From positions 1-34,634 of the forward strand of contig CAMBGS010000009.1 of the NCBI GenBank assembly GCA_945866305.1: a stretch of DNA of 34,634 nt, given 5' to 3'. The DNA is from Bifidobacterium breve (lineage in GTDB: Bacteria > Actinomycetota > Actinomycetes > Nanopelagicales > Nanopelagicaceae). Within the stretch, counting starts at the first letter, position 1. Each line of letters opens with the position of its first letter. Both the position numbers and the translations under genes were made by a program. The notes below the pieces were generated by a model that saw only the letters and a program-made list of their open reading frames with translations, had not been told where the DNA came from and made no database searches. Shown here piece after piece: positions 3,398 through 27,647 of the stretch.

Positions 3398-4309
3398 CTA
3401 CTTGCCTATTTTTGCGAGTTCAGGTGCAACAACTTTACGCAGGTAATCAACTGATTGTGTCATTCCCGTAATTGGACCTTCGCCAATACCTGGCATCTCA
3501 CCTGTGATTGCAACATCTTGTTCAATCACATACCAACCTTGATAGCCAGCGCTTTCCAGTGCCAAAATTGTTTCTATAATAGGAACATCGCCTTGCCCTA
3601 GCGGAGTAAATAAACCGTTCTGTACACCCTCCATAATGCTCTGTTGACGCGCGAGTACTGGCGGCACAGATTTCATGTTGACATCTTTTAAGTGCACGTG
3701 GCCAACACGGCTAGCATATTTCTTAGCAAACTCAACAGTGTCTTGCCCGCCGATTGTCATATGCCCGGTATCCAAACACCACATCACATCTGAGTTTTCT
3801 ACTACACGATCAATATCTCGCTTGGTTTCAACGACGGTCTGTAAATGTGGATGCACTACTTGAACCAGGCCGTGGTCTTTACAGATTTGATCTACTTCAC
3901 CAAGCATCTTAAAGAATTGAGTGACTTCATCATTGGTGAGCTCTTTTGGATTATCCCAATCCCAGCTTTGAACAGGAGATGAAACAAAATGAGTAGCGCC
4001 GATCTCTTGAAATTTCTTACTAGTCTTTAACGTCATTTCAATTGTTGCTTTTTCTTGAGACTTGTCGTGCAAGACAACGGGCGTGAAACCACCGATCATT
4101 GACATTTTAAATTCTGCTAATTGATCCTTAAGTTCTGCAGAATCATCAGAGAAGAAACCCGGTGCGCCAATTTCGGTTGCTGGTAAACCAAGGCTAGTCA
4201 TTTCAGATAGCACTCGTTTTGTTGGCAACATTGCGCCCCAACCCGGTACTTCACAGATTCCCCAAGAGATCGGTGCAGATGCAATTCGTTGTAAAAATGT
4301 CGTGGTCAT
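3398..4309 (-). CDS. IolE-like TIM-barrel isomerase/dehydratase
   Basis: A 303-residue protein of the AP-endonuclease-2/xylose-isomerase-like TIM barrel family. The N-terminus APISWGICEVPGWGAML (12-28) resembles inosose dehydratases. Probable metal and active-site residues are H153/H155 in VVHPHLQT, D180 in CLDTGH, H206 in GHVHLKD and E263 in VIEQD, in the order expected for IolE. I start at ATG 4309: an upstream frame to 4453 would run into aroE, and TATGAT lies exactly 6 nt before 4309. It is followed after 3 nt by the NagB-like gene. IolE converts scyllo-inosose to a diketone; other relatives are epimerases of sugar phosphates or of 3-keto sugars. The nearby GMC and Gfo/Idh/MocA oxidoreductases would suit a keto-sugar or cyclitol substrate. 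Confidence 0.75.
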   Translation of the reverse strand: MTTTFLQRIASAPISWGICEVPGWGAMLPTKRVLSEMTSLGLPATEIGAPGFFSDDSAELKDQLAEFKMSMIGGFTPVVLHDKSQEKATIEMTLKTSKKFQEIGATHFVSSPVQSWDWDNPKELTNDEVTQFFKMLGEVDQICKDHGLVQVVHPHLQTVVETKRDIDRVVENSDVMWCLDTGHMTIGGQDTVEFAKKYASRVGHVHLKDVNMKSVPPVLARQQSIMEGVQNGLFTPLGQGDVPIIETILALESAGYQGWYVIEQDVAITGEMPGIGEGPITGMTQSVDYLRKVVAPELAKIGK

Positions 4310-4344
4310 TGGCTGATCATAACTTGCGCGGTAAGGTCTGAACA
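4309..4344. promoter_or_regulatory. Compact divergent promoter pair, both leaderless-type
   Basis: Only 34 nt separate the start codons of the IolE-like gene (-) and the AroE-like gene (+). On + there is TTGGCT (4309-4314), a 17-nt spacer, TAAGGT (4332-4337), then 6 nt to ATG 4344. On - TATGAT (4321-4316) is followed by 6 nt and ATG 4309. The plus -35 therefore overlaps the first codon of the opposite gene. No ribosome site is visible on either strand. Confidence 0.5.
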
Positions 4345-5207
4345 TGACTATGGATATAGGCGGATCATTTCTGCACGAATTAACTGGCAGTTTCTCCCAG
4401 GGATCTGATTCAAATCCGACAGTTGCAATGGTGGAGGCCTCATATAAGGCCAATAACCTGCACTATCGCTACATCAATTGTGAAGTGAACCCTGACCAAC
4501 TGGCAGCGGCTGTAGCGGGTGCTAAAGCCATGAATTGGAAGGGTTTTAATTGCTCGATCCCTCACAAAGTAGAAGTGATCAAGTATTTGGACAGCCTGGG
4601 CGAATCTGCCTCCTTAATCGGCGCGGTCAATTGTGCGGTTAACAGAGGCGGCAAGTTAATAGGTGAAAATACTGACGGCAAAGGTTTTCTTAAATCATTT
4701 TTGGAAATAACCCCGGCCACTGAAAAAACTGTTGTTCTGCTCGGGGCAGGTGGTGCCGCGCGTGCAATCGCGGTTGAACTGGCTTTGGCGGGTGCGAGTA
4801 AGTTCTATGTCGTAAATCGCTCACGAGCTCGCGGAGAAGAGTTGACTGCGCTATTAAATGATAAAACAAAAGCTAGCGCTGAATTTGTGGAGTGGAATAA
4901 GACTTATGAAATTCCAAAAAATGCCGACATTGTGATTAATTCAACTTCAATGGGAATGGTCAACACTGAAGGGCGACAGGATATTAACTTTGACTCAATT
5001 CGCCCTGGAATGTTGGCAGCTGATGTAATTGTTAATCCACCACAAACCTACTTCTTGACCGAAGCTGGAAAGCGTGGAGCGACCACTCTGCAAGGTTTAG
5101 GAATGGTGGTTAATCAAGCTGTAATCGCGATCGAGTATTGGACCGGTGTTGCTGTAAATCCCAAGGATTTGCATAACGAACTTACGCGGGTCTTAGGGCT
5201 TTCTTAA
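4344..5207 (+). CDS. Shikimate/quinate dehydrogenase-like protein (AroE family)
   Basis: A 287-residue AroE-family NAD(P) oxidoreductase. The N-terminal substrate domain has GSFSQG (the family HSxSP region, with the two serines kept), NCSIPHKVEV with the catalytic Lys, and GAVNCAVN; ENTDGKGF carries the catalytic Asp. The Rossmann part starts LLGAGGAARAIA, followed by NRSRARGEE, where the Arg residues suggest NADP. The C-terminus GLGMVVNQAV is typical. AroE in the aromatic pathway reduces 3-dehydroshikimate, but this copy sits among sugar/cyclitol genes, divergent from an IolE-like enzyme, so it could be a catabolic paralogue acting on quinate, shikimate or another cyclitol. Its stop overlaps the convergent GMC gene through TTAA. 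ATG 4344 is favoured by the -10 spacing; 4350 is an alternative. Confidence 0.8.
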   Translation: MTMDIGGSFLHELTGSFSQGSDSNPTVAMVEASYKANNLHYRYINCEVNPDQLAAAVAGAKAMNWKGFNCSIPHKVEVIKYLDSLGESASLIGAVNCAVNRGGKLIGENTDGKGFLKSFLEITPATEKTVVLLGAGGAARAIAVELALAGASKFYVVNRSRARGEELTALLNDKTKASAEFVEWNKTYEIPKNADIVINSTSMGMVNTEGRQDINFDSIRPGMLAADVIVNPPQTYFLTEAGKRGATTLQGLGMVVNQAVIAIEYWTGVAVNPKDLHNELTRVLGLS

Positions 5208-6697
5208 ACCTTCGCGAGATCTGATTCAGCAACCACGCGCAGCGCTTGCGCAGCAATTGTTAACGCAGGATTCATCGCCGCAGATGATGGAAAGAATCCA
5301 CCATCAATTAGATAAAGATTGTAATGATCGTGGCTGCGGCAGTAACTATCAACGACACTGGTACGCGGATCGCTACCGGCAACAGTAGTTCCGCATTGAT
5401 GCGAGTTCATCGAAATATCAAAGGGTTGCCTGAAGATCCCTTGGTAGCCCGCCTTGCGTAATACCTTCTTGGCACGACGCAGAAGTTCCATATGTGTCTT
5501 CATTCCAACGGCGCGACGCACGATCTTGATCGCCCCATTTTCAGTGATAGTTACCCGATTTTCTGGGTGTGGCAGATCTTCACTCATAACCACAAATTCA
5601 ACACTGTGATCTGAAATTAAGTTAAGCAGCGGCAACGGAACCATCTTTGCAAAAGTTTTCATCATTATGCCTTGGACTTTTCCAATTAATTGAACAGCGC
5701 CAAGTGGATAACCCTTGCCTCCATCTAAGTACCAATCGGTGAAAGAGAGCGTTTTCTGGAAAGTTACATCGTTCTTGCGGCGCATATCAACTGCCGCGAT
5801 ATGGCTGTTGTTGTGCATCATAAAATTGCGACCAACTTGATCGGATGAGTTAGCAACACCTGAGCGCAGCAACAGCGCAGCGGTATTTACCGAGCCAGCA
5901 GAGATTACAAACTTCTTGCCATAAATCTCTAGCAGCTCTCCGTTTCGAGTTGCTTCTAAGTGGCTTACCGATTTTCTATCTTCGGATAAAACAATTCGAT
6001 TTACTTGTACCGAGGTCATCAGCGTGACATTGCCTGTTGCAATCGCAGGATTTAAAGCATTAACTTCGGCATCACTTTTGGCATCTAACTTACAAACAAA
6101 ACCATCGCAGGTTTTACAGCGGATACATTTTCCACCTGGCCCCAAGTCAATGCCCATTGAATTCGAATGTGGACGCACGCCCGCCTTAGTTAATCGCTTA
6201 CCGAGTTCTTCAACGTAAGGCTCGTGTTTCATCGCAGGATACGGAAATGGATTACTGCGCGTATTGCCGTAAATATTTTGGGCGTCACCGTGGACTCGAT
6301 ATAACTCTTCTGCGCCGTAGTAATACGGTTCTAAATCATCATATGTAAAAGGCCAGGCCGGCGATATTCCTTCTTGGTGTTTTACGGTTCCGAAATCGAA
6401 TCGGCTAAAGCGGGGAAGTGATGCGCCATAAACTTTGCTATTTCCGCCGACGAAGTAATGAACGCCAGGAACAAACTCTCTATCTTTCTCATCCACCCAT
6501 TTTTCATTGGGCTTGTATCTCGTCTTCATAAAGATTTCAGATGGAGACCAATTCTCTGGTTCGCGTGGCATTCGTTCTCCACGTTCCAAAACCAGCGTCT
6601 TGACCCCTTTATTGGCCAAAGCAAAGGCGGTTGTAGCGCCACCCATTCCAGAACCAACAATGACCACATCCGATTCGATACGAACCGGAGTGGTCAT
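5204..6697 (-). CDS. GMC-family FAD sugar/cyclitol oxidoreductase with Cys cluster
   Basis: A 497-residue glucose-methanol-choline oxidoreductase. The FAD-binding motif VVIVGSGMGGATTA is at 11-24, with the acidic end VLERGE at 37-41. The GMC C-terminal domain holds the probable catalytic pair H433 (NSHQCGTT) and N476 (MNPALTIAAQALR). An unusual insert C191-I-R-C-K-T-C-D-G-F-V-C202 supplies four closely spaced cysteines. No signal peptide is visible, so it is probably cytoplasmic. Family members oxidise a sugar or polyol hydroxyl; relatives of this short type include sugar 3-oxidases and aminoglycoside/cyclitol dehydrogenases. It lies 27 nt behind the ABC ATPase gene on the same strand, probably as the last gene of the transporter transcript, suggesting it oxidises the imported compound. 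Confidence 0.85.
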   Translation of the reverse strand: MTTPVRIESDVVIVGSGMGGATTAFALANKGVKTLVLERGERMPREPENWSPSEIFMKTRYKPNEKWVDEKDREFVPGVHYFVGGNSKVYGASLPRFSRFDFGTVKHQEGISPAWPFTYDDLEPYYYGAEELYRVHGDAQNIYGNTRSNPFPYPAMKHEPYVEELGKRLTKAGVRPHSNSMGIDLGPGGKCIRCKTCDGFVCKLDAKSDAEVNALNPAIATGNVTLMTSVQVNRIVLSEDRKSVSHLEATRNGELLEIYGKKFVISAGSVNTAALLLRSGVANSSDQVGRNFMMHNNSHIAAVDMRRKNDVTFQKTLSFTDWYLDGGKGYPLGAVQLIGKVQGIMMKTFAKMVPLPLLNLISDHSVEFVVMSEDLPHPENRVTITENGAIKIVRRAVGMKTHMELLRRAKKVLRKAGYQGIFRQPFDISMNSHQCGTTVAGSDPRTSVVDSYCRSHDHYNLYLIDGGFFPSSAAMNPALTIAAQALRVVAESDLAKV

Positions 6698-6724: not shown

Positions 6725-7519
6725 TTAACGAACTGAAGTCAGTGCTTGGTCTTTCTTATCGACTGTCATGGCGCCAGTCATAATCGCAACAACATCGTTC
6801 ATTGAGTGGCTCTTTGGAGTAACAACTGCAGCGCGCTTTCCGAGGCGTTGCACCTGGATGCGATCTGCAACTTCAAAGACCTGAGGCATGTTGTGTGAAA
6901 TCAAAATTACTGGCATTCCACGATCGCGAAGAGACTCGATTAACTTGAGTACCTGACGTGATTCACGAACACCAAGTGCCGCTGTTGGTTCATCAAGGAT
7001 GATTACCTTCTGACCGAACGCCGCAGCGCGAGCAACCGCAACTGCTTGGCGCTGACCACCTGAAAGTGTTTCAACAGCTTGTGTGATGTTCTGAATTGTT
7101 CCGATACCAAGAGCTGCAATATGTTCTTTAGCAGCCTTGCGCATTCCAGAGCTATCGATCATACGAAAGACTGATCCAAGTGGACCCTTCTTGCGCATTT
7201 CACGACCAAGAAAAAGATTCGATGCGATATCGAGAGCCGGTGCAACAGCAAGTGTCTGGTACACAGTTTCGATTCCGGCATGACGGCCATCTTGTGGTCG
7301 CTTAAATGAGACTTGTTGGCCATCAACAATGATCTGACCTTCGTCAGCAACTTCAGCGCCAGATAAGCATTTGATCATTGTTGACTTACCAGCTCCGTTA
7401 TCTCCGACTACTGCGAGAACTTCACCTGGAAACAGTTCCAAGTCAGAGCCATCAAGTGCGACGACGCGACCATAGGATTTAGTTAGCCCAACTGCTTGCA
7501 GAATTGGTTTCTTACTCAT
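6725..7519 (-). CDS. Sugar ABC transporter ATP-binding protein (FrcA/RbsA-type, single domain)
   Basis: A 264-residue cytoplasmic ATPase of the carbohydrate-uptake-2 (CUT2) class. Walker A GDNGAGKST is at 39-47, the Q-loop at VYQTL, the signature LSGGQ at 152-156, Walker B VIILDEP at 172-178 and the switch His in LISHNMP. CUT2 ATPases such as RbsA usually have two fused ATPase domains; this has one, like FrcA of the Sinorhizobium fructose system, and must dimerise. I choose ATG 7519 because it overlaps the permease stop in ATGA, the usual translational coupling; the alternative 7540 lies inside the permease gene. GMC oxidoreductase follows. Substrate by family resemblance: fructose, ribose or mannose-like monosaccharide or a cyclitol. 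Confidence 0.92.
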   Translation of the reverse strand: MSKKPILQAVGLTKSYGRVVALDGSDLELFPGEVLAVVGDNGAGKSTMIKCLSGAEVADEGQIIVDGQQVSFKRPQDGRHAGIETVYQTLAVAPALDIASNLFLGREMRKKGPLGSVFRMIDSSGMRKAAKEHIAALGIGTIQNITQAVETLSGGQRQAVAVARAAAFGQKVIILDEPTAALGVRESRQVLKLIESLRDRGMPVILISHNMPQVFEVADRIQVQRLGKRAAVVTPKSHSMNDVVAIMTGAMTVDKKDQALTSVR

Positions 7520-8559
7520 TTGCGTGCCTTTCTGATCCACTGGTCAACTGAGACAGCGAAGATAATAAGAAGTCCGATTGCGAGGAGCTGGTAGTACAAG
7601 TCAACGCCAGCAAGCGTTAGACCATTACGGAAAACACCCACGATGATCGCTCCGATCAATGAACCAAAGATTGTTCCTCGGCCACCGAATAGTGAAGTAC
7701 CCCCGATAACCACCGCAGTGATCGCATCAAGGTTTAGATCGCCACCTGTGTTCGGACTCGCCACGGTTACGCGGCCAATAACGATCCAGGCTGCAAGTGC
7801 GAAGGTAAGTCCGGCAACCATGTAAACGCTCATTAGGACGCGGTTAACTGAGATACCTGCCAGGCGCGCTGCATCAATGTCATCGCCAACTGCGTATACG
7901 TGGCGACCCCAAGATGTGTAGCGCAAGACGAAGGCCAAGACCATATACATAGCGAACATGAATAGAACGCCAGTTGTGACTCGGAACGGTCCGAGATTTA
8001 CATAATGACCAAGTGTTAATAGGAAGGGATCCATCTCAATTGAAGGAACAGTTCCTTTAGTTAAAGTCAGCGTCAACGCAAGGAATACGTTGAAGGTACC
8101 CAAGGTAACGATAAATGGTGGCAATTTAACTTTTGTTACTAAGAAGCCGTTAATTGCACCACCGAGCATGCCGACAAGTAATCCGGCTGGGAATGCTAAC
8201 CAGATGGCGATACCAACTGGTTCACCTTCGCCCGGCGTTCCTTGTACTAACTTCGCCATTGTCATTGATGAAAAGACTGCGATCGCGCCACAAGAAAGAT
8301 CGATACCGGCAGTTAAAATGATTAGCGTCTGTCCGGCGGCGACTGCGCCGACGATCGCTACTTGCTGAAGGATGAGTGAAAAGTTAGATGGTGTTAAAAA
8401 GTTTTCATTAAAAAAGCTAAAAATTATTGATGCTACAACTAGCACCATTGTTGAACTCAGCCATGGATATTTATGCAGAAGAGCTTGCGCTTTTTGGCTG
8501 ATTGATGCGCGGTCTTGAAATTCTGCCGCTGCATCGTATGTGGCCGTGTCTTGACTCAC
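7516..8559 (-). CDS. Sugar ABC transporter permease (RbsC/FrcC-type)
   Basis: A 347-residue membrane permease with about nine to ten hydrophobic segments. It carries family hallmarks: AAGQTLIILTAGIDLSCGAI early, GxxNGFLVTKVKLPPFIVTLGT in the middle, and the EAA-like cytoplasmic loop YAVGDDIDAARLAGISVNRV, followed by AVVIGGTSLFGGRGT. This is the RbsC/AraH/FrcC family that forms the channel for CUT2 importers. The start is GTG at 8559 with AAAGGA 7 nt before it. The stop overlaps the ATPase start. It follows the binding-protein gene after a 135-nt gap that contains a strong hairpin, which would lower its expression relative to the binding protein. Confidence 0.93.
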   Translation of the reverse strand: MSQDTATYDAAAEFQDRASISQKAQALLHKYPWLSSTMVLVVASIIFSFFNENFLTPSNFSLILQQVAIVGAVAAGQTLIILTAGIDLSCGAIAVFSSMTMAKLVQGTPGEGEPVGIAIWLAFPAGLLVGMLGGAINGFLVTKVKLPPFIVTLGTFNVFLALTLTLTKGTVPSIEMDPFLLTLGHYVNLGPFRVTTGVLFMFAMYMVLAFVLRYTSWGRHVYAVGDDIDAARLAGISVNRVLMSVYMVAGLTFALAAWIVIGRVTVASPNTGGDLNLDAITAVVIGGTSLFGGRGTIFGSLIGAIIVGVFRNGLTLAGVDLYYQLLAIGLLIIFAVSVDQWIRKARK

Positions 8560-8621
8560 TTGTGGTCCTTTCGAAGTTACGAAGTATCTTATTGTGCAAC
8601 GTAATTAATTCTAGTGCCTAG

Positions 8622-8659
8622 TTAAAGAGGGCGACTGCCGAAGCAGCCGCCCTCTTTAA
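8622..8659 (-). terminator. Strong intercistronic hairpin with C(UUCG)G loop
   Basis: A 17-bp stem with one G-U pair on the minus-strand transcript is closed by a C-UUCG-G tetraloop, one of the most stable RNA loops known. The 3' arm ends in CUCUUUAA rather than a long U-run. It lies 36 nt after the binding-protein stop and about 60 nt before the permease start. Best read as a partial terminator and 3' end stabiliser that gives excess binding protein over the membrane components, a common arrangement in sugar ABC operons. Confidence 0.75.
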
Positions 8660-8694
8660 ACACTCTTCTTTAGTTATTCACTAAAGAGCTGGGA

Positions 8695-9762
8695 TTAACC
8701 CCAAGCGTTTGCTAGACCGTATTCAGTTGTCTCTGATGGGACACCATCTTGTGGGTCATCAGTAATCAACTTAACGCCGGTGTTGAAGAAGTCCAAGCCT
8801 TCTGACTTAGATGGCTTTGTACCGTTCTTCACGATGTCGTAGATAGCTTGAACACCAAGGTCAGCCATCAACAATGGGTACTGCTGTGAAGTTGCATTGA
8901 TGCAACCTGACTTAACAGCACCGATACCAGCGCCGCCACCGTCAACAGAAACCATTACATCGAGCTTGATACCAGCAGCAGCTGCTGCAGCACATGCACC
9001 GATTGCTGTTGGCTCGTTGATTGTGTAAACAACGTTGATCTTCTTGTTCTTAGCAAGAAGTTGCTCAAGACCTGTACGGCCGCCGTCTTCGTTAGCGCCT
9101 GTCGCTACGTTTCCGACGATCTCATAGTCTCCGCCTGAGTACTTGCCCTTCTTGGCTTCGTCACCCATCTTGTTTGGATCTGCAACATCAATTCCCATAC
9201 CTGCAAGGAATCCGTTATCGCGCATGTAGTCAACAGACACAATGCGGTCATCGAAGATGTCGAGAAGTGCAATTGTTGCCTTCTTGCCAGCAAGCTTTGC
9301 AGCTGTCCACTGACCGATTAGAAGACCAGCTTCGCGGTTATCTGTTGCGAAAGTGATGTCCACAATGTCAGCAGGATCTGGTGCTGTGTCAAGGGCAATT
9401 ACATATAGACCTGCATCGCGGGCCTTAGTGATTGCTGCGTTAACTTCTGTTGACACTGGAACGATCAAGATACCAGCGTGCTTTGCTGAGATAGCGTTTT
9501 CAATCGCTGCGATCTGGCCAGCGTAATCTGATTCATCTACTCCAGATGTAACAGTTAGCTCTACGCCGAGTTCTTCTGCCTTAGCAGTAGCACCCTTGAT
9601 CATTGCAACGAAGAATGGGTTTGACTGATCTTTTGTAATTAATGAAACAGCAACTTTGTCGCCGCTTCCACTATCGCTATTTGAACAAGCAGATAGCACG
9701 AGCATTGACGCTGCGGCTACGGCAACAATTGCTGCAGCGCGGCGTGAGAAAAGCTTTGCCAT
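8695..9762 (-). CDS. Sugar-binding lipoprotein of the ABC importer (FrcB/RbsB-type)
   Basis: A 355-residue periplasmic-binding-protein-like lipoprotein. The N-terminus is a lipoprotein signal: RR at residues 7-8, hydrophobic core AAAIVAVAAASMLVL, and lipobox LSAC with C26 as lipidation site, followed by a Ser/Gly/Asp linker. The mature protein has the type I binding-protein fold: VAVSLITKDQSNPFFVAMIKGA, then ILIVPVSTEVNAAI, VIALDTAP, and the hinge and ligand segment VYTINEPTAIGA and VSVDGGGAG. The start ATG has an ideal AGGAGG 8 nt upstream. Codon choice looks strongly biased (AAC, AAG, ATC preferred) compared with neighbouring genes, consistent with a highly expressed binding protein. The gene leads the transporter transcript. 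Confidence 0.93.
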   Translation of the reverse strand: MAKLFSRRAAAIVAVAAASMLVLSACSNSDSGSGDKVAVSLITKDQSNPFFVAMIKGATAKAEELGVELTVTSGVDESDYAGQIAAIENAISAKHAGILIVPVSTEVNAAITKARDAGLYVIALDTAPDPADIVDITFATDNREAGLLIGQWTAAKLAGKKATIALLDIFDDRIVSVDYMRDNGFLAGMGIDVADPNKMGDEAKKGKYSGGDYEIVGNVATGANEDGGRTGLEQLLAKNKKINVVYTINEPTAIGACAAAAAAGIKLDVMVSVDGGGAGIGAVKSGCINATSQQYPLLMADLGVQAIYDIVKNGTKPSKSEGLDFFNTGVKLITDDPQDGVPSETTEYGLANAWG

Positions 9763-9896: not shown

Positions 9897-11678
9897 TTAG
9901 CCCCGAATGAGGGCGATTTCAAAGGGGGTCAGGGTCAGCGGGAATTCAGCCGAAATTGGAGTTATCTCAGCATATGACCACCAATCCATGATCTGGCTCG
10001 ATTTATCGCAATCTTCGCCCCGCAGGCTCTGCATGGACTTATAGCCAGCTAATACTTTTGCAGTGATTTCTACCGTCCACGGGCGAAGTGATGCCACGAG
10101 AATTGTTTTCGTTTCTCGATTTTCAAATGCCACCCATGAATTATCAAGAGATGTGGCTATTGTAATTTGATGTGCGTGATGTGCGCCTAGCGCTGATATT
10201 GCGTGAAAAGTTGGTGTGAATTTTATGGAACCAGACTCTGAATAAATGGCCCCATATTCACCGAAGAGTTCGTGCCAACTTCCGGAGAATGCACCTGCGC
10301 TCGCAAGTGAGTGAATTGATCCAAGGGTCCACGCTGCACCTTCAATAGTGCGAATATGCAGTGCCATTTCTGGTTCCGCATAAACAAGTCGCTGATCTCT
10401 AGAATGTCCAGAATGAGGATTGCCGCGCGTCGAAAAAGTGATGGGAGATATGAAAACTTGCGGTGCAATGTATTTTTGTGCAAAGTTAATTGACTCTTGC
10501 TGTGTAAATAGAGTTTTAAAAATGGTTTCGGTATCAAAAGAATGCACAGTTGGCGCCATCGAGTAAGAAACCGAATTTCCAAAGTTATATTGATCGCTCT
10601 GTAGATCAACTAAGAACGCATCTGATCCAGGAATATAAGAATTAAGCGAGCTATTTTTTGGAAGATCTGCCTGGTCTACAACTTGGCGACCTGCTCTTTG
10701 AACAAGCAGGCGCGAACCGGCCGGAACTCTTTCACTCAGCCGCAGAACCTCCTCCTTTAAATCCTCACCTTTACTAGAAGAGAGCAGCGCGGTTTCTAAA
10801 ATAAGGCCATTTGCTGCAGTTGTCGCAATTTTTTGAGAAGTCAACGTTTCTTCATTTATTCGAAGATGGTCAATTTCTAGCAGAATAAAAGCCTTTTCCA
10901 AATCATCAGGAGTTAAAAGTGAATCATTATTAAACTGCAGACCAATGCTCGGTAGAGCCTCAATCTCCTTCACCAAGATTTTGGTTGCATCAGTAGTGAC
11001 GGATTCAGGAACGCCAACCTCAAAACTAACGCTCTGCTTCCAGACGCTTCCAGCGCTAGTCAAGAAAGGAAATGGCTCACTTAGAGAGCCGCTATAAATT
11101 TTGTAAGTGTTATCTGTCCAGTTGCGCTGATCTTCGGCTTCCAAAACTTTGTCGGTAGAAACCACCTTTAAATTGCGCTTATCTGGTGCGATGAATTGCA
11201 TTTCATTTGAGGCAGGAAAGAGGCCTTGTATAACCCCGTCGACAACTCGCTGCGGAGAAATATCTTGTGCCAGCGAGTAAGTATTTCCTGATGAGACCAC
11301 GCTAGACCCCATCCACTCTGCAGTATTAAGGCAGAGGCAGACACCCCAGCGACTAACTGGATATTCAGTCAAGCCTTTTAATTCATAACCAACTGAAAAA
11401 GTATTGCTTGAAGAAAGTATCACTTTTGTCTTAGCATCGAGTGCGCCGGCAAGTGATTCGGTAATTGTAATTACGCAATCGTCACCAATAATTTGCACAT
11501 CTGCTGAATACTCATCAGCTTTTAAAGTTGACCAATCCAACGGGCGTATTGCGGTGTACAGCAGATCTATTAGTTGCACACCTTCGAATCTAATATTTCG
11601 AATAGCCTCTCGGGCTAAATCCAAAGTGAAGCCGCCGTGAGTTACCCGAGTTGTGTCGGGCCAATGATTGACGCTCAC
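9897..11678 (-). CDS. apnL: D-apionate lactonase-like protein
   Basis: A 593-residue soluble protein with no signal peptide. The segment EAEDQRNWTDN (180-190), followed by a YKIY strand, matches the hallmark I recall from ApnL, the lactonase that opens D-apionolactone to D-apionate in bacterial apiose catabolism. The assignment is from memory of that motif, not a search. The N-terminal part is beta-rich, and a central region around 270-480 looks TIM-barrel-like. Its GTG start overlaps the SDR stop in GTGA, so it is the fourth gene of an operon with an ApnO-like enzyme, a TIM barrel and an SDR. That context independently supports a sugar-lactone role. If the motif is misread, it is an uncharacterised glycan- or lactone-acting protein. 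Confidence 0.65.
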   Translation of the reverse strand: MSVNHWPDTTRVTHGGFTLDLAREAIRNIRFEGVQLIDLLYTAIRPLDWSTLKADEYSADVQIIGDDCVITITESLAGALDAKTKVILSSSNTFSVGYELKGLTEYPVSRWGVCLCLNTAEWMGSSVVSSGNTYSLAQDISPQRVVDGVIQGLFPASNEMQFIAPDKRNLKVVSTDKVLEAEDQRNWTDNTYKIYSGSLSEPFPFLTSAGSVWKQSVSFEVGVPESVTTDATKILVKEIEALPSIGLQFNNDSLLTPDDLEKAFILLEIDHLRINEETLTSQKIATTAANGLILETALLSSSKGEDLKEEVLRLSERVPAGSRLLVQRAGRQVVDQADLPKNSSLNSYIPGSDAFLVDLQSDQYNFGNSVSYSMAPTVHSFDTETIFKTLFTQQESINFAQKYIAPQVFISPITFSTRGNPHSGHSRDQRLVYAEPEMALHIRTIEGAAWTLGSIHSLASAGAFSGSWHELFGEYGAIYSESGSIKFTPTFHAISALGAHHAHQITIATSLDNSWVAFENRETKTILVASLRPWTVEITAKVLAGYKSMQSLRGEDCDKSSQIMDWWSYAEITPISAEFPLTLTPFEIALIRG

Positions 11679-12391
11679 CGCGCAGTCATTCCGCCATCGA
11701 CTGCATACGATGCACCTGTTGCAAATGAAGAATCCTCAGAAACTAACCAGTTAACGATTCCGACTAAATCACGTGGGTCGCCCATTCGCCCAAGTGGTGT
11801 TCGCCGAATTAAATCTGGACCCTTTTCGGGATCATCCCAAATCTTTTTAATCAGCGGTGTAGACATTGTTCCGGGTACAACCACATTTGATCGCACGCCA
11901 ACTTCTTTGTAATCCACCGCGATGATGCGAGATAAGCCCATCATTCCCGCCTTCGATGCGCCATAAGCGGTGTAGCCAGCGCCTTCCATTGTAATTCCCG
12001 TTGGAGAACCGATAAGTACAACTGAGCCACGACCAGAATCAATTAAGAGCGGTATTGCATACTTAACAGATAGAAAAGCGCCCGTCATATTTACATCAAT
12101 AGTGCGCTGCCAAGTTTCTAAAGTTACGTTGGCGATCTTGGAATCACTGCCAACCAACTGCACGCCTGCTGAAACAATTATTGCATCAAGTTTTTCAATC
12201 TGCCCGAAAGCTTTTTGAACGGAGGGCTCATTAACTAAATCAACCGCGATGTAATTTGAATTCTGATCTGCAGGTTTAACCGAATCTAAATTGAATACGG
12301 TAGCCCCAGCGTCAATTAACCCAGTTGCTAAAGCAGATCCAATTCCGCCGGAACCACCAGTGATCGCTACGTTGTATCCGCTGAGATTCAT
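11675..12391 (-). CDS. Short-chain dehydrogenase/reductase
   Basis: A 238-residue classical SDR. The NAD(P)-binding motif TGGSGGIG is at 11-18, and the catalytic triad is S129 (LIGSP), Y143 and K147 (YGASKAG). VNMTGAF and the ending VNWLVSEDSSFATGASYAVDGGM are typical. An acidic residue after the second strand (NLDS, D36) favours NAD, as in sugar dehydrogenases. ATGA overlap with the TIM-barrel gene upstream and GTGA overlap with the lactonase-like gene downstream place it in a tight operon. In an apiose pathway it would be a candidate for oxidation of the free sugar to the lactone, a step done elsewhere by a Gfo/Idh/MocA enzyme, or for reduction of the keto product. Confidence 0.9.
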   Translation of the reverse strand: MNLSGYNVAITGGSGGIGSALATGLIDAGATVFNLDSVKPADQNSNYIAVDLVNEPSVQKAFGQIEKLDAIIVSAGVQLVGSDSKIANVTLETWQRTIDVNMTGAFLSVKYAIPLLIDSGRGSVVLIGSPTGITMEGAGYTAYGASKAGMMGLSRIIAVDYKEVGVRSNVVVPGTMSTPLIKKIWDDPEKGPDLIRRTPLGRMGDPRDLVGIVNWLVSEDSSFATGASYAVDGGMTAR

Positions 12392-13206
12392 ACTTTTAAT
12401 CCTATCGATTTACGTAAGAACGCCACACTTTCCTTTGCCCAAGCTTCTTCCAACGCCACTGTCGCTGAGTAATTTTCTTGGCGCGGAGTCCACAGTTCGA
12501 TAACTGAAGTAATTTCACGTGCGCTGCCACCAACCGCTGCGATAACTGCAGGGACGTCCAAACGACCTTTACCGAGCGCAGTGCCTTGCACCGTGAATCC
12601 CATTTGACCATTGCTACGAATTATTTCAAAATCTTTCATATGAACATTTATAGCCCTAGGCGCAAGTGCTGGCACGACGGTATTTGGTGCTTCTACGGCT
12701 CCAAGAGAATTTACAGTATCCAAACAGATGCCCACCCAATCAGGACCAAGGCGATCGATAATCTCGTTAAATTCTGCGCACGTTAGGCGATCATGATTTT
12801 CAATCGCTAATTTAATATTTGCAGATTTAAATCTAAGAGCAAAGGATTGAAGCAATTCACAAATTTCAGCAATATCTGGTTCGTGCCCTTTACTATCAAT
12901 CACCACTCGTAATATTGGTGAACCAAGAATTTGAGCAATTGCTAAGAATCGTTCAATATTTTCTGCTTTTATTCCTCGCGTACCAACTTCTAAGGCAATA
13001 CCAAAACCATCGGCGGTTGTTCTTAATTTTTGCAGTTCTGCATCGCTAAGGTGTCCGAGCGGCAAGTTATCTGCAATCTGCAAAACATCTGCGCCCAAAA
13101 CCTTAGCTTTATCTAACAACTGAAAGGCGTCCATAGAAACTGGATGATCGGGTTCAATCCCGCCGATCGCCCAAGGAAAGGTAAAGCTAGAAACGCCAAG
13201 TTTCAT
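12388..13206 (-). CDS. Xylose-isomerase-like TIM-barrel enzyme
   Basis: A 272-residue AP-endonuclease-2-family TIM barrel. The metal-binding set is clear: E136 (LAIENHD), D163 (CLDTVNS), H189 (INVHMKD) and E237 (VIELW), as in sugar epimerases, isomerases and decarboxylases of this fold. K191 in HMKD is also conserved in the family. The gene starts 8 nt after the ApnO-like stop, and its own stop overlaps the SDR start. In the described non-phosphorylating apionate route, 3-oxo-isoapionate is decarboxylated to L-erythrulose by OiaC; this gene would be my candidate for that step here by position. That is inference. An epimerase role on a keto sugar is the main alternative. Confidence 0.8.
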   Translation of the reverse strand: MKLGVSSFTFPWAIGGIEPDHPVSMDAFQLLDKAKVLGADVLQIADNLPLGHLSDAELQKLRTTADGFGIALEVGTRGIKAENIERFLAIAQILGSPILRVVIDSKGHEPDIAEICELLQSFALRFKSANIKLAIENHDRLTCAEFNEIIDRLGPDWVGICLDTVNSLGAVEAPNTVVPALAPRAINVHMKDFEIIRSNGQMGFTVQGTALGKGRLDVPAVIAAVGGSAREITSVIELWTPRQENYSATVALEEAWAKESVAFLRKSIGLKV

Positions 13207-13214
13207 CTTTAAAG

Positions 13215-14060
13215 TTACTTATCCCCGCCGGTGATTTGTTTAACGCTAGCAAGAACATTTTCGGGTTCGAAAATCGCTGCCCAGTCATCGCGGAAGAGCG
13301 AACCTTGGGCATTCTTTAACGCCATCAAAGCGCCATCAGATAATTTCCAATTCAACTCTTCAAATAAGAGCGCAATACTTATTTGTAAATGTCCCATACA
13401 GAAATCTTTCGCCGCAGCTTCTGGCACACCAAGATCAATGACTTTTTGCAAGCCTTGCGTAATAACTTCAACACAGCCATTAATTAGAGTTTCGCTCAGC
13501 GCCGGCTCCAGTAAGGCCATTTGCTGCACAGTGATTCGATGGCTAGCGCTAATAGGCGCAAACATTTCGGTGGCGATTGTTTCGACCAAGTCCGCTTCTT
13601 CTTCGGTTCCCCAAGCGATTGCAAATACCAAGGCTTGAGTAGCAAGTCCGCCGCCCCAATAATCACGACGTGCAGCCGGATCAGTTTCGCCCAAGAGGCT
13701 AAATACAGGCGGATGAGTTGGGTGGCAGACAAAGCAACTAATGTCTTCGCGCTTTTTTACACGACTTGCTGCAATTGCGGCAGGATCTAAAAATAGAATT
13801 TTTGTTCCGGGGTCTAACTTAGGAACCACCTCATCTGATATCTGTCGAACTAAAGCATCAGGTGTTGTAAAAATAACAACATCAGTTCCCTTAAGCGCTT
13901 CATCTAAATCCATAACTTGTAATCCGGCTTCACGGATACGGGCTTGCCCAGCTTCAGATTTTTCAACGAATCGAAGCTGATATTTCTTTGTCTCAAGAAG
14001 AGGCTTGGTAATTCGATTACCCATCTTGCCGCCCGCGCCAAGAATCGTTACAACAGTCAT
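13215..14060 (-). CDS. apnO: D-apionate oxidoisomerase-like dehydrogenase
   Basis: A 281-residue NAD-dependent dehydrogenase. The Rossmann motif LGAGGKMG is at 7-14, followed by a 6-phosphogluconate-dehydrogenase-like helical C-terminal half. The segment CFVCHPTHPPVFS (109-121), SASHRITVQQMALLEPALSET (171-191) and the ending FRDDW-x-x-IFEPE closely resemble what I remember of ApnO, which converts D-apionate to 3-oxo-isoapionate. The start is ATG 14060 with GGAG at good spacing. It heads a minus-strand operon of four genes. Not 6-phosphogluconate dehydrogenase itself, which is longer (about 300-470 residues) and has a different substrate motif. Family confidence is good; the exact substrate depends on operon context and recall. 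Confidence 0.72.
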   Translation of the reverse strand: MTVVTILGAGGKMGNRITKPLLETKKYQLRFVEKSEAGQARIREAGLQVMDLDEALKGTDVVIFTTPDALVRQISDEVVPKLDPGTKILFLDPAAIAASRVKKREDISCFVCHPTHPPVFSLLGETDPAARRDYWGGGLATQALVFAIAWGTEEEADLVETIATEMFAPISASHRITVQQMALLEPALSETLINGCVEVITQGLQKVIDLGVPEAAAKDFCMGHLQISIALLFEELNWKLSDGALMALKNAQGSLFRDDWAAIFEPENVLASVKQITGGDK

Positions 14061-14137: not shown

Positions 14138-15835
14138 ATGTCAGATTCAACCGCGAATACACTTGCTAATAAATATGTGATAGGAGTCGATTACGGAACT
14201 CTCTCTGGCCGCGCGCTACTAGTGCGAGTCTCAGATGGCGCAGAAATAGCAACTTCCGTCTATGAATATCCCCATGCGGTTATCGAAGATTCACTTCCAA
14301 CCTCGGGTGCAAAACTTCCGCCTGATTGGGCGTTGCAAGTGCCGGCAGATTATGTCGATGTTCTGAAACATACTGTTCCAGCTGTTTTAAAAGATTCTGG
14401 TGTATCACCCGAATCCATAATTGGAATCACTACCGATTTCACTGCCTGCACCGCACTTCCTGTTAAATCAGATGGCACACCACTTTGCCAACTTCCTGAA
14501 TTTTCTAAAAATCCGCACGCCTTTGTGAAGTTGTGGAAACACCATTCCGCACAATCGCATGCTGATCGCATAAACACCGCTGCGCATTCTAGAAAAGAGC
14601 CTTGGATTTCGCGCTATGGTGGGAAAATCTCATCCGAATGGGAGTTTGCTAAAGCGCTACAAGTATTGGAAGAAGCGCCCGAAGTCTATGAGGCTATGGA
14701 TAAATGGGTTGAAGCCGCTGATTGGATTATCTGGCAACTATGCGGAAAGTATGTGCGCAATATTTGCACCGCAGGTTATAAAGGAATTTATCAAGATGGT
14801 AAATATCCAAGTAAAGAATATTTGGCTGCGCTGAATCCAAAGTTTGAAAACTTTGTTTCTGAAAAACTCGAACACGAGATTGGCCAACTCGGTGCAGTTG
14901 CCGGGACGTTAACGGCAGAAGCTGCCGCTTGGACCGGACTTAAAGAAGGAATTGCAGTAGCAGTCGGCAATGTTGACGCACATGTCACCGCCGCTGCAGC
15001 GAACGCGGTTAATCCTGGACAGATGGTTGCGATTATGGGTACATCAACTTGCCATGTGATGGTTTCTGAGAAATTTGCAGAAGTACCAGGGATGTGTGGA
15101 GTTGTTGACGGTGGGATTATCGCCGGCGCACTCGGTTATGAAGCAGGGCAATCTGGCGTTGGAGATATCTTCGGTTGGTTTGCAAATAACTATGCACCTG
15201 CCGAATACACGAATGCCGCTGCCGCCAAAGGCGTTGATATACATACCTATCTATCTGAATTAGCCAGCGCACAACCAGTCGGCGCTCACGGCTTAGTTGC
15301 TCTTGATTGGCAGAGTGGTAATCGCTCTACATTGGTGGATCACCAACTTTCTGGGCTAATAATGGGTCTAACTCTCTCTACAAAACCAGAAGAGATTTAT
15401 CGAGCGATCGTTGAATCAACTGCTTACGGAGCGCGCAAGATTGTCCAAACTTTTAACGAATCTGGAGTCCCAGTAAAAGAGTTCATTGCCGCTGGGGGTT
15501 TGATTAAAAATATGTTTGTAATGCAGATTTATGCTGATGTATTAAACATGCCAATTACGATTATTAAATCTGCCCAAGGCCCAGCCTTGGGATCAGCAAT
15601 TCATGCAGCGGTTGCTGCGGGTGCATATAAGGATGTACAAACCGCTGCGGCTGCCATGGGTGGAGTTGCTGAAGAGCGCTATCAACCAAATCCAGCGAAC
15701 GCCAAGGTTTATAACGAACTTTACGAGCGCTATGACGAACTTTACGAAAGTTTCGGCCACAATGGTGCAATGCATTCACTGCGTGCGATACGAGATCGCG
15801 CCCTAATTGGATCGGTAAATAAAAATGGCAGCTAA
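14138..15835 (+). CDS. araB: Ribulokinase
   Basis: A 565-residue FGGY kinase of full AraB length. The N-terminal ATPase-fold motif is GVDYGTLSGRALLV (16-29); the catalytic base is probably D280 in GNVDAHVTAA; and the MGTSTCHVM motif and C-terminal IAAGGLIKNMFVMQIYADV complete the FGGY signatures. It phosphorylates L-ribulose to L-ribulose-5-phosphate. The last 11 nt overlap araD, so the two are coupled. No L-arabinose isomerase (araA) is in the window, so L-ribulose must come from a distant araA or from another route such as polyol or keto-pentose oxidation. It is divergent from the ApnO-like operon across 77 nt. Confidence 0.95.
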   Translation: MSDSTANTLANKYVIGVDYGTLSGRALLVRVSDGAEIATSVYEYPHAVIEDSLPTSGAKLPPDWALQVPADYVDVLKHTVPAVLKDSGVSPESIIGITTDFTACTALPVKSDGTPLCQLPEFSKNPHAFVKLWKHHSAQSHADRINTAAHSRKEPWISRYGGKISSEWEFAKALQVLEEAPEVYEAMDKWVEAADWIIWQLCGKYVRNICTAGYKGIYQDGKYPSKEYLAALNPKFENFVSEKLEHEIGQLGAVAGTLTAEAAAWTGLKEGIAVAVGNVDAHVTAAAANAVNPGQMVAIMGTSTCHVMVSEKFAEVPGMCGVVDGGIIAGALGYEAGQSGVGDIFGWFANNYAPAEYTNAAAAKGVDIHTYLSELASAQPVGAHGLVALDWQSGNRSTLVDHQLSGLIMGLTLSTKPEEIYRAIVESTAYGARKIVQTFNESGVPVKEFIAAGGLIKNMFVMQIYADVLNMPITIIKSAQGPALGSAIHAAVAAGAYKDVQTAAAAMGGVAEERYQPNPANAKVYNELYERYDELYESFGHNGAMHSLRAIRDRALIGSVNKNGS

Positions 15836-17308: not shown

Positions 17309-18625
17309 CTATTTAACCTTTAATTTAAATTTACCTGCAGCGATACCTGCAAACTCTGCTGCGCCAGTGGCTCCAGCTTCTGTTGCATCTGAAACTCGGT
17401 ACTTACCAAATTGTTTCTCTTTTGCGAAAGCAATCATCGGATTCTTAATCCATCCACCAGCAATAACCACATTCTCCGCTTTTCCAGTGAATTTCTCAAT
17501 CAGTGAAATCATCTCGGCGGAATCTTCGACTAGATGTTCAACTGTCGCGCGGAAGAGAGCAGCCGGTGAAACAGCGTCATCTAAATTCGTGATTGAAAGC
17601 CCGTGGTAATCATTTACTACTCGCATTGCACTTGCGGCGGGATCAATTGAGAGCGCTGCCGTTCCAAGTGCAACTTTCTCGTCAAGTGAAGTTACCCCAA
17701 GTAAAGAACAAGCACGCTCTAAAGTTAGGCCAGTTGGTAGCGCTCCAAGCAAGGTGTAATGATCTGCAATTACCGAACAACTTAGTCCAACATTTGCGGC
17801 AGCTAACTCTGCAATTGCATCTCGCTTAAGTGGGGCCTTAAATGTCCGTAATAGCGCTTCAGCAGTGCCCATTGAATCAAAGAGTGAACCTTCATTAATC
17901 GCACCGGAGTAATACGCGGCGGTGAAATGATCATGTCCGGCTATCGTTATTATCGCGCCACGCAAATTCTCAGGCGCTTTCTCGTTTACAAATCCGATTG
18001 GTTCGCCTGCGACAACTAACCTCGATAAGAAATCTTTTCCTCCGCCAACCAAATTAATCGCTTCTTCCCAAGGCTGGCGCGCTTCAACGTCGAAGAAACC
18101 AGTTCGGCTGACTAGTGAGAGTTCATTAACAGGTTCTGCGCCGAGACAGTAGGCCACCCATTCGGGTGCAGAAAGAAAGTGTTTGGCTCTCTTTGATTCA
18201 GGATAATTTTTATTTAACCAGAGCGTTTTGGAAATTGTCACAATTTCATTTAACAACGCACCAGCGCGCGCACGAAACTCAAAGTCACCCAGCTCTTTTA
18301 TAATTGGTTCCGTCAGACCACGAGGGTCATGCCAAGCTAATCCAGGAGATAGTGGAGTTCCTGAAGCATCAATCAACACGCCAGTTTCGCTAAATCCGGT
18401 AAACCCGATCGCTAAAACTTTCCCACCAGCTAGTTCAGCAGCCTTAGAAGCTACCGCTGTTACCGTTTTAGCCAACAACGCCATATCTATTTCGCTGAAA
18501 TTCTTTTCATGCTTCCAAGGAGTTGGTTCTGTGTATTCAGATAAAACTTTCAAATCTAAATCGGTTGCAACTGCTTTAAGGCGTGAAGTACCAATATCTA
18601 CGCCAATCAAAATTTCTTGCATCAT
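17309..18625 (-). CDS. FGGY-family carbohydrate kinase
   Basis: A 438-residue kinase, shorter than xylulokinase (about 490). The N-terminal motif GVDIGTSRLKAVA is at 8-20; GFTGFSETGVLID and AWHDPRG are in the substrate domain; the catalytic aspartate is probably D232 in AGHDHFTAAYYSG; and FDSMGTAEALLR and IAGGWIKNPMIAFAKE are the C-terminal nucleotide motifs. The MGTAEA and GHDH arrangement is closest to LsrK/gluconokinase/xylulokinase-like members; I cannot fix the substrate. It starts ATGATG immediately after the TAA of the ManA-like gene, with no intervening base, so the two are coupled. Confidence 0.88.
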   Translation of the reverse strand: MMQEILIGVDIGTSRLKAVATDLDLKVLSEYTEPTPWKHEKNFSEIDMALLAKTVTAVASKAAELAGGKVLAIGFTGFSETGVLIDASGTPLSPGLAWHDPRGLTEPIIKELGDFEFRARAGALLNEIVTISKTLWLNKNYPESKRAKHFLSAPEWVAYCLGAEPVNELSLVSRTGFFDVEARQPWEEAINLVGGGKDFLSRLVVAGEPIGFVNEKAPENLRGAIITIAGHDHFTAAYYSGAINEGSLFDSMGTAEALLRTFKAPLKRDAIAELAAANVGLSCSVIADHYTLLGALPTGLTLERACSLLGVTSLDEKVALGTAALSIDPAASAMRVVNDYHGLSITNLDDAVSPAALFRATVEHLVEDSAEMISLIEKFTGKAENVVIAGGWIKNPMIAFAKEKQFGKYRVSDATEAGATGAAEFAGIAAGKFKLKVK

Positions 18626-25252: not shown

Positions 25253-25582
25253 ATGAAAATTAGAAATTGGATTAAAAAAACTAAAGCTGGCCGTTTTTTC
25301 TGGCGCGTGGTCATTGGTGTCGTTGGCGGAACAATAACCGTTTTAGGTGCAATTGCATTAGTTGGTCCGGGCCCTGGAATTTTAATTGTGATTGCCGGAC
25401 TGGGTATTTTGGCAACTGAATTTGCTTGGGCTTCGCGAGTTATGGTTCACACAAGAACTTATGCGCAGAAAGCAGCCGATAAAGTTGGAATACCAAAATG
25501 GGTTCAATTCGCACTTATTGCTGGTGCGGCAGTTTTATCAATTCTTGTAATTTTATATTTGTATTCAGCAGGAAAAATTTAA
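25253..25582 (+). CDS. Small PGPGW-motif transmembrane protein
   Basis: A 109-residue membrane protein. The basic N-terminus (KIRNWIKKTKAGRFFWR) is followed by a hydrophobic segment around 19-40 and the motif GPGPGILIVIAGLGILATEFAWA (38-60), diagnostic of the PGPGW/TIGR02611-type family of actinobacteria. A further hydrophobic span lies at about 84-104. No function is established for the family. It is convergent with tryptophan dioxygenase with a shared TTAA. Confidence 0.85.
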   Translation: MKIRNWIKKTKAGRFFWRVVIGVVGGTITVLGAIALVGPGPGILIVIAGLGILATEFAWASRVMVHTRTYAQKAADKVGIPKWVQFALIAGAAVLSILVILYLYSAGKI

Positions 25583-26376
25583 AACTGAGAACGAATATCC
25601 CAAAGATCTTTAAAAACTGGATTAAATAAAGTACTTGCTAAGTACTTAACTCCATCAGAGCCACCGGTACCCATTTTCTGTCCGATAGTGCGCTCAACCA
25701 TCTTTACGTGGCGGTAGCGCCACTCTTGCAGCCCTTCATCAATATCCATCAAACGTTCGCAGACCATTGCTGACTCAGGATCGCTGCGATGAACTTCTAA
25801 CAAAGCGTCAATTACCCTTGGATCAGATTGATAATGGGTTGATTTATCGCGTTTTAAAATTTCAACGGGGATCTTATGTCCGCGTTTTGCAAGATAAACC
25901 AGAGTCGAATCCCATATTGAGTTGCGAGATGCAATCTCCTTAATTTCTGCTTGGACATCTAAAGGCAGATGCGAAGCCATTTTAGAATCTCTGCGACCTA
26001 AGAGCGCTTCAACTTTTCTAAACTGAGCGGACTGGAAACCACTTGATGATGAGAGATAACCGCGGAAGGCGTTAAATTGCAGCGGCGTCATAGTTTCTAA
26101 AATATCAACCTGAGTTACACAGACTTTTAGAATTGTGCGAATTCGTCCAAGTATGGCCAGTGATCGATGTGTGTCGCCTGACTCAAGCGATTTTCCAGCC
26201 TCGTTGAATTCGTGAATTAACTGTTTAAACCAAAGTTCGTAACTCTGATGGATGATAATAAATAGCATTTCATCGTGCTCTGGGCCCTCAGATAAAGGGT
26301 TTTGTAATTCAAGTAACTTATCAATTGCTAAATAAGAAGTGTAAGTAAGAGCAGAATCAAAATCGGCATCGCTCAC
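25579..26376 (-). CDS. kynA: Tryptophan 2,3-dioxygenase
   Basis: A 265-residue haem enzyme that opens the indole ring of L-tryptophan to N-formylkynurenine. Family marks are TYTSYLAIDKLLELQNP near the N-terminus, HDEMLFIIIHQSYELWFKQ with substrate-site H43, FNAFRGYL and GFQSAQFR for substrate carboxylate binding, and RYRHVKMVERTIG with the proximal haem ligand H223, followed by GTGGSDG. Length is near the bacterial norm. GTG start, overlapping the kynureninase stop in GTGA. It is therefore the second gene of a kynU-kynA operon. Kynurenine formamidase is not in the window. Confidence 0.96.
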   Translation of the reverse strand: MSDADFDSALTYTSYLAIDKLLELQNPLSEGPEHDEMLFIIIHQSYELWFKQLIHEFNEAGKSLESGDTHRSLAILGRIRTILKVCVTQVDILETMTPLQFNAFRGYLSSSSGFQSAQFRKVEALLGRRDSKMASHLPLDVQAEIKEIASRNSIWDSTLVYLAKRGHKIPVEILKRDKSTHYQSDPRVIDALLEVHRSDPESAMVCERLMDIDEGLQEWRYRHVKMVERTIGQKMGTGGSDGVKYLASTLFNPVFKDLWDIRSQF

Positions 26377-27647
26377 GTGACTCTCGAATCTGTTGTTTCA
26401 ATCTTCTCATATTGTCGAGAAGCGACTAGATCGCGGATGCGCGCAAAACCATCCCAAACTTCTACATAAGAAGTTGGAAGTGGAGCAATTGCTAATCTAA
26501 TTGAATTAGGTGTTCGATAGTCCGGAATGACGTCAGCAAATTCTCGTAACGCTACACAGATACGTGCCGCATCGGGATGACCTAGAGAGATATGCCCACC
26601 ACGTTCTTGGGGATTTCTTGAGGTTAATAAAGTAAATCCAAGCTCTGCCAGCCAAGCATCGTAGAGCTGAATCATCATCTCAGTTCCGATCGCAGCCTTT
26701 TCTGAAATCGCACCGATTCCGGCTTCTTCGATCATGGTGAATGCGCTCCTAATGCAACGTAATCCGATCAGCGAAGGACTTGCAATTTGAAAACCGCGAA
26801 TGCCTTGTGCTTTCTCAAAATCTGGTCCCATTGCAAATTGATCGCCTTGTGAAAACCAACCTTGGATTGGAACTTGCAACTCGGCTTGCACTTTTTTATT
26901 CACATAAAGCCAAGCAGGCGCACCCGGGCCAGAATTTCCATATTTATATGTGCATCCAACTGCAATATCAACGCCATTTTTATCAAAGTCCATTTCAATG
27001 GCACCGACTGCGTGGCTGGCATCCCACAACATAAAGGCTCCGTGTTTGCGCACTAAATCGGTCAGGGATTTAATGTCATTGCGGGCACCCGAACGATATT
27101 GAATTACTTCTAAAGTAACTAGCGCTACATCATCATTTAAGAAAGGCGCAAGAATTTCGGGAGTTATTCGTTCGTGCTCAGCCGAACCTGCAGATTCGTT
27201 ATCGATTATGACTAGCTTCAATCCAAATTGTTTTGCAATTCCATCCAAAATGTAACGATCAGTGGGGAAATTTGCAGCATCCGTGATTATTGTTTTTCGA
27301 CCAGGGCGTGCATGAATTGCAGCCAGGGCTAATTGATAGAAATTTACGGATGTTGTATCGCAAGCAAGAACTTGGCCAGCAGCAGATCCAAGGGTGGCGC
27401 GGCCAATTAAATCTCCGGTTGGCTGCGCCTCATCCACCCAGTGGCCCCATCCAGTAACAACCTCAGGGCCCCACTCATCTTTCATAAATGCATTGACAGC
27501 ATCAACCGTGGTTAGCGGGAGTCTGCCTAAAGAATTTCCATCTAGATAGCAGATATTCGGATCGCTGATTACAAATTGGGAACGGAAGCGAGCCAATGGA
27601 TCGCGAGCATCTAGGTCGAGTGCAAATTGACGGTCAGTGGCTTTCAT
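26373..27647 (-). CDS. kynU: Kynureninase
   Basis: A 424-residue fold-type-I PLP enzyme that cleaves kynurenine to anthranilate and alanine. The start CYLDGNSLGRLP (33-44) and GWGHWVDEAQPTGDLIGR are family-specific. The PLP-binding Asp is in LWDASHAVGAIEMD, and the Schiff-base lysine is K235 in VGCTYKYGNSGPG. TACCTT lies exactly 6 nt before ATG 27647, so a leaderless mRNA is likely. It is co-transcribed with tryptophan dioxygenase downstream, and is divergent from the ABC-F gene by only 24 nt. With no formamidase visible, the operon as seen gives two of the three steps from tryptophan to anthranilate. Confidence 0.96.
   Translation of the reverse strand: MKATDRQFALDLDARDPLARFRSQFVISDPNICYLDGNSLGRLPLTTVDAVNAFMKDEWGPEVVTGWGHWVDEAQPTGDLIGRATLGSAAGQVLACDTTSVNFYQLALAAIHARPGRKTIITDAANFPTDRYILDGIAKQFGLKLVIIDNESAGSAEHERITPEILAPFLNDDVALVTLEVIQYRSGARNDIKSLTDLVRKHGAFMLWDASHAVGAIEMDFDKNGVDIAVGCTYKYGNSGPGAPAWLYVNKKVQAELQVPIQGWFSQGDQFAMGPDFEKAQGIRGFQIASPSLIGLRCIRSAFTMIEEAGIGAISEKAAIGTEMMIQLYDAWLAELGFTLLTSRNPQERGGHISLGHPDAARICVALREFADVIPDYRTPNSIRLAIAPLPTSYVEVWDGFARIRDLVASRQYEKIETTDSRVT

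Follow-up and report, generated by a model that had tools for sequence, protein, structure and literature searches.

Apiose is a sugar of plant cell walls, where it occurs in rhamnogalacturonan II and in the apiogalacturonan of aquatic monocots, and an oxidative pathway for D-apiose, with its step names and a hydroxymethyl migration catalysed by ApnO, has reportedly been worked out; the chemistry of ApnO resembles that of a ketol-acid reductoisomerase run backwards. A marine strain carrying ApnL, ApsD, ApnO, OiaK and a 4-phosphate decarboxylase uses D-apiose as sole carbon source (PMC11747546), and in E. coli growth is also supported by an apiose cluster in which two oxidoreductases stand in for the isomerase (PMC13001218), which offers a precedent for swaps at the first step.

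Several known clusters resemble in part the operon found in the stretch of DNA analysed here (34,634 nucleotides; hereafter the window). Shinella sp. HZN7 (L019), of the oxidative OiaX/OiaK type, shares with it an ApnO homologue (43.5% identical), an ApnL-like protein and a ribose-type ABC transporter; on Shinella plasmids ApnO is accompanied by an annotated OiaX, a Gfo oxidoreductase, an ApnL-like protein and a transporter, which is ribose-type ABC in one and TRAP in the other. Relative to the OiaX/OiaK-type pathway, the window has an SDR for the Gfo-family ApsD and a TIM barrel for the RuBisCO-like OiaX and the kinase OiaK, and its ApnL-like protein (ApnL1) is only about 20% identical. On plasmids of Erwinia sp. 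E602 and Pantoea sp. At-9b (L023, L265), a row of DHA kinase, TPI-like isomerase, OiaC-like TIM barrel and ApnO has rpiB nearby; the likeness to the window lies in ApnO adjoining an OiaC-like TIM barrel (32% and 33% identical to those of Erwinia), whereas the DHA kinase, TPI-like isomerase and RpiB are additions for L-erythrulose, and the row has no annotated SDR. Clusters of Bacteroidota, Chloroflexota and Verrucomicrobiota (for example L109, L117 and L158) combine ApsD, an OiaC-like TIM barrel (41–47% identical to that of the window), ApnO (43–48%) and, mostly, an ordinary ApnL, an SDR of the operon type not being detected among them. The same four enzyme types as in the window stand together in actinomycete clusters of the order DHAK-RpiB-TPI-OiaC-ApnO-SDR-ApnL (L240, L249 and L253, with L241 lacking the kinase part), although these have an ordinary ApnL, an OiaC from a different subclade and an ApnO less similar to that of the window (35–39%); L240, L249 and L253 also carry the L-erythrulose genes, unlike the window operon.

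The ORF listing of the window places four genes on the minus strand, overlapping or nearly so, as the preliminary description had stated: a putative ApnO-like D-apionate oxidoisomerase (281 aa; 13215–14060), a putative OiaC-like 3-oxo-isoapionate decarboxylase (272 aa; 12388–13206), an SDR-family dehydrogenase that may stand in for ApsD as D-apiose 1-dehydrogenase (238 aa; 11675–12391), and the divergent ApnL-like putative lactonase ApnL1, which has a GTG start (593 aa; 9897–11678). Eight nucleotides separate the ApnO-like and TIM-barrel genes, and the TIM/SDR and SDR/lactonase overlaps are 4 nt each. Gene order is kept at dS of about 1.5 among carrier species (a carrier being a genome with an intact ApnO-like gene), and purifying selection is evident, strongest in ApnO (median dN/dS 0.019, against 0.080 for the TIM barrel and 0.105 for the lactonase-like gene), with no internal stops in the genes tested, in 12 genomes; kept order and purifying selection together place the operon beyond chance. 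Most flanking genes have dS values in the same range as the operon, which speaks against its having been acquired very recently. Promoter and terminator scans gave results no better than those from shuffled sequences. Judged from sequence and context, the operon is probably a cut-down oxidative, OiaC-type branch of D-apiose/D-apionate catabolism, with another dehydrogenase and a strongly altered lactonase.

The window comes from a fragmented assembly that is 83% complete, and we surveyed 135 genomes of its genus, in which presence counts reflect shared ancestry rather than independent events: 15 carry an intact ApnO-like gene (95–100% identical), and the TIM-barrel gene occurs in the identical set of 15 (77–100%). 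The lactonase-like gene, complete in 12 carriers and partial in two more, accompanies ApnO and the TIM barrel wherever the contig allows; in the last carrier (G074) the TIM-barrel gene lies within about 330 nt of the contig end. One further genome (G071) holds a decayed operon, of which only remnants are left between the sugar-binding-protein gene and araB: between 10005 and 10624 of L103 we observe a short fragment of ApnO and a lactonase 3′ end of about 366 bp that is 73% identical. Close relatives in public records are Actinomycetota metagenome genomes, one of them named after Lake Pavin, and from these records and genome size we infer that the genus is freshwater nanopelagic.

The ApnO assignment, proposed earlier from a motif (CFVCHPTHPP, present in the 281-aa protein), is supported. 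The protein matches PF16896 (4e-48) with a KARI-like N-domain, is 42–48% identical to proteins of ApnO clusters, and keeps 47 of the 51 columns conserved across 78 non-genus proteins (the differences being L6I, L64F, A65T and G159V). The context agrees in many phyla: close ApnO homologues adjoin ApsD, ApnL and either OiaX/OiaK or a TIM barrel, and alongside the window-type ApnO a TIM barrel is always present and an ApnL-like gene lies in the same operon. A scan across phyla, with one genome per species, yielded 80 ApnO loci, at 22 of which (18 outside the genus) there is a TIM barrel, accompanied in only two by OiaX/OiaK as well; 42 of the 58 loci without a TIM barrel have OiaX and/or OiaK. 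Because TIM barrel and OiaX/OiaK are thus almost mutually exclusive at ApnO loci, we read the TIM barrel as OiaC. In the ApnO tree the window's protein falls inside a supported set of 37 rows containing all 23 OiaC-linked rows.

The TIM barrel itself has the PF01261 fold, a family of metal-dependent enzymes, with the metal-ligand positions in place (E136, D163, H189, E237 and an ENHDR motif are invariant), and it is 33–47% identical to TIM barrels that stand next to ApnO in place of OiaX/OiaK. The earlier suggestion that it could be the decarboxylase is supported by context, and the protein is best read as the 3-oxo-isoapionate decarboxylase OiaC, an identity taken from its neighbourhood. NCBIfam held no OiaC model that we could find, and searches of solved structures by sequence returned no match for either the TIM barrel or ApnL1. 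As predictions from sequence, the ApnO and OiaC assignments are well supported. PF16896 and PF01261 are broad families, and it might be supposed that the window has paralogues of ApnO and the TIM barrel with shifted specificity, the whole operon acting on a different branched sugar acid; the divergence of ApnL1 and the failure to find an L-erythrulose kinase in carriers (see below) would fit such a view, but the 47 of 51 columns kept across ApnO clusters, the conservation of the TIM partner with ApnO and the restriction of ApsD-like genes to carriers within the genus speak against it, and we consider it very improbable.

For the first oxidation, the operon holds an SDR and no protein of the Gfo/Idh/MocA fold. 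The best HMM match of the SDR is aldose dehydrogenase PRK06398, at 154.7 bits and below the cut-off of 341. In a class survey of 395 genomes an ApnO homologue was present in 22, five of them from the genus, and the 17 others were examined with their surroundings: in ten, RpiB, TPI-like and/or DHA-kinase genes lie next to an OiaC-like TIM barrel and ApnO, and four (L240, L249, L253 and L241, from two other actinomycete families) have an SDR and ApnL as well, with no ApsD match in the surroundings retrieved. These four SDRs are 41–45% identical to that of the window (174–197 bits), whereas among the matches listed from the plasmid collection (ordered by coverage × identity) no SDR exceeds 134 bits; the nearest relatives of the window SDR, among the matches listed, are thus SDRs in actinomycete ApnO/OiaC/ApnL clusters. 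In the SDR tree the ApnO-linked actinomycete proteins join the window-type SDRs (support 99/96), and one long plasmid row also falls within this group; around the plasmid SDR L264, which joined the ApnO-linked SDRs, there are no apiose genes. The idea that an SDR replaces the usual Gfo/Idh/MocA dehydrogenase therefore finds its backing in context, namely a related SDR beside ApnO, OiaC and ApnL without ApsD in four genomes, and the closed, 99%-complete carrier G066 likewise has no ApsD-like gene. It is plausible that the SDR is a D-apiose dehydrogenase replacing ApsD. The two Gfo proteins of the window were considered as ApsD and rejected, one being 23–26% identical to ApsD-type proteins and the other without a match. 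IolG-like and IolE-like genes, both under NCBIfam cut-offs, occur near the operon at 663–1646 and 3398–4453.

ApnL1 is the weak point of the operon. Its motif EDQRNWTDN (residues 182–190) is as previously quoted, and it keeps E180, E182, D183, R185, W187, D189, K193, Y195, H379 and D382, all invariant in ApsD-linked ApnL. However, it has no Pfam family, and against the NCBIfam ApnL model NF049900 it reaches 61 bits over residues 10–232 only, far below the curated equivalog cut-off of 750. The expectation that all catalytic residues would be kept failed for this 593-aa protein, with the ApnL invariants E35, R38, D46, H117 and D439 replaced. Among 70 columns conserved in 30 ordinary ApnL proteins it keeps 38, against 59 for a second ApnL-like protein of some carriers (ApnL2, below), and it forms a very long branch in both trees. 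The predicted fold fits ApnL. Models of ApnL1 and of an ApsD-linked ApnL, both of good confidence (pLDDT 88 and 90), share as top structural match, in the barrel part, the beta-glucuronidase 8b0d (Z 24.7, rmsd 3.7 over 335 residues for ApnL1; Z 26.8, rmsd 3.4 over 340 residues for the ApsD-linked ApnL), and mutarotase-like matches appear among the Foldseek rows of both, so that ApnL1 is predicted to combine a mutarotase-like N-domain with a GH-A-like barrel. Such a barrel could suggest a glycosidase, a reading we rejected: there is no catalytic glutamate at the predicted ends of strands 4 and 7 (judged by eye from the strand assignment of the model), and ApsD-linked ApnL shares the same fold. 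The earlier label of ApnL-like lactonase thus holds for fold and core motif and falls short on profile score and invariant residues; ApnL1 may open apionolactone or another lactone.

A second locus complicates the feeding of the pathway. An ApsD-like Gfo protein, 44–49% identical to ApsD where compared, occurs in nine of the 15 carriers but nowhere else in the genus (0 of 120 genomes; Fisher p 1.6e-10, a value that ignores shared descent), and in the loci read its gene lies directly before that for ApnL2 and a different SDR. ApnO searches found one full copy per genome, so apionate made by the second locus would depend on the operon's ApnO. Since these nine carriers have ApsD and ApnL2, the SDR and ApnL1 seem superfluous in them and may act on a different substrate or ring form. 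Extended to the operon in general, this becomes the proposal that ApnO and OiaC use apionate which the SDR and ApnL1 supply from another furanose or lactone form or a derivative, ordinary apiose being left to ApsD and ApnL2; the loss from ApnL1 of invariants of ApsD-linked ApnL, the 59 of 70 columns kept by ApnL2 and the confinement of ApsD and ApnL2 to carriers would all accord with it. Yet six carriers, among them the closed G066 and G001 (97% complete), are without ApsD and ApnL2, which leaves the SDR and ApnL1 as the only visible feed there, and other actinomycetes pair a related SDR with an ordinary ApnL; we regard this proposal as unlikely and retain the D-apiose reading. Genes near one second locus (L097:3946-8055) may belong to a route for a deoxypentose or methylthioribose: they encode a RuBisCO-like protein of 375 aa (PF00016), a 656-aa fusion of an aldolase with an SDR, and an MtnA-like protein (PF01008).

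The operon coordinates should be widened to include a ribose-type ABC transporter downstream on the same strand (6725–9762), made up of a sugar-binding protein (8695–9762), a permease (7516–8559) and an ATPase (6725–7540). The distribution of the sugar-binding protein makes this transporter the likely importer for the operon: an orthologue (90–98% identical) is found in 14 of 15 carriers, and a match in four of 120 non-carriers, one being the decayed G071. It is only 27.5% identical to its counterpart in an apiose cluster. The dS of its gene, about 0.2, is far below that of most neighbours; we do not take this as recent exchange, as the codon bias of a highly expressed gene would explain it equally well. 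The ATPase has one ABC domain (271 aa), whereas its homologue in the Shinella cluster L019 has two (514 aa). A GMC oxidoreductase gene (5204–6697) follows the ATPase gene by 27 nt on the same strand and is kept in G071; elsewhere in the window, tryptophan 2,3-dioxygenase and kynureninase genes adjoin (25579–27647).

On the other side of the operon, 77 bp from ApnO, lies the divergent gene of an L-ribulokinase AraB (plus strand, 14138–15835; equivalog match). We do not count it as an operon member, since 34 of the 135 genomes have it and 19 of these lack an intact operon. A gene for an FGGY kinase lies at 17309–18625. Dak1, of the DHA-kinase type, was found in none of the 15 carriers and in 20 other genomes of the genus, and we therefore rejected a DHA kinase as the next enzyme after the operon. 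The four-gene route of the preliminary description is incomplete, transport and an L-erythrulose kinase lying outside it and the usual kinase being absent.

Taken in order, the pathway that we propose would begin with import of D-apiose by the ribose-type transporter. The SDR would then oxidize C1 with NAD(P)+ to give apionolactone, in place of the Gfo-family ApsD, as its context and relatives suggest, and ApnL1 might open the lactone to D-apionate, this being the weakest step. Family and conserved residues point to ApnO for the oxidation of apionate to 3-oxo-isoapionate, in which one hydroxymethyl group would move from C3 to C2, and family and context to the TIM barrel for the decarboxylation of this beta-keto acid to L-erythrulose and CO2. 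Any use of L-erythrulose would have to proceed without the DHA-kinase-type enzyme of other ApnO/OiaC clusters. A bolder version, which we think quite unlikely, is that ApnL1 and the SDR form a new dehydrogenase–lactonase pair that acts on some form of apiose, or on a related branched sugar, beyond the reach of ApsD and ApnL. In this version the pathway of a streamlined planktonic genome would also be truncated at L-erythrulose, which carriers would pass on or hand to a kinase such as AraB.

Our search of the open-access literature found no paper linking apiose to this actinobacterial group. The parts of the proposed route are already known; what is new is the way they are combined, together with the SDR and ApnL1. 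The small size of the operon would allow work on it as a whole in a laboratory host. If the assignments are true, the SDR would be a second answer to the apiose-oxidation step, ApnL1 would mark a divergent lactonase subfamily, and this compact apiose route would tie lake bacteria to plant carbon.
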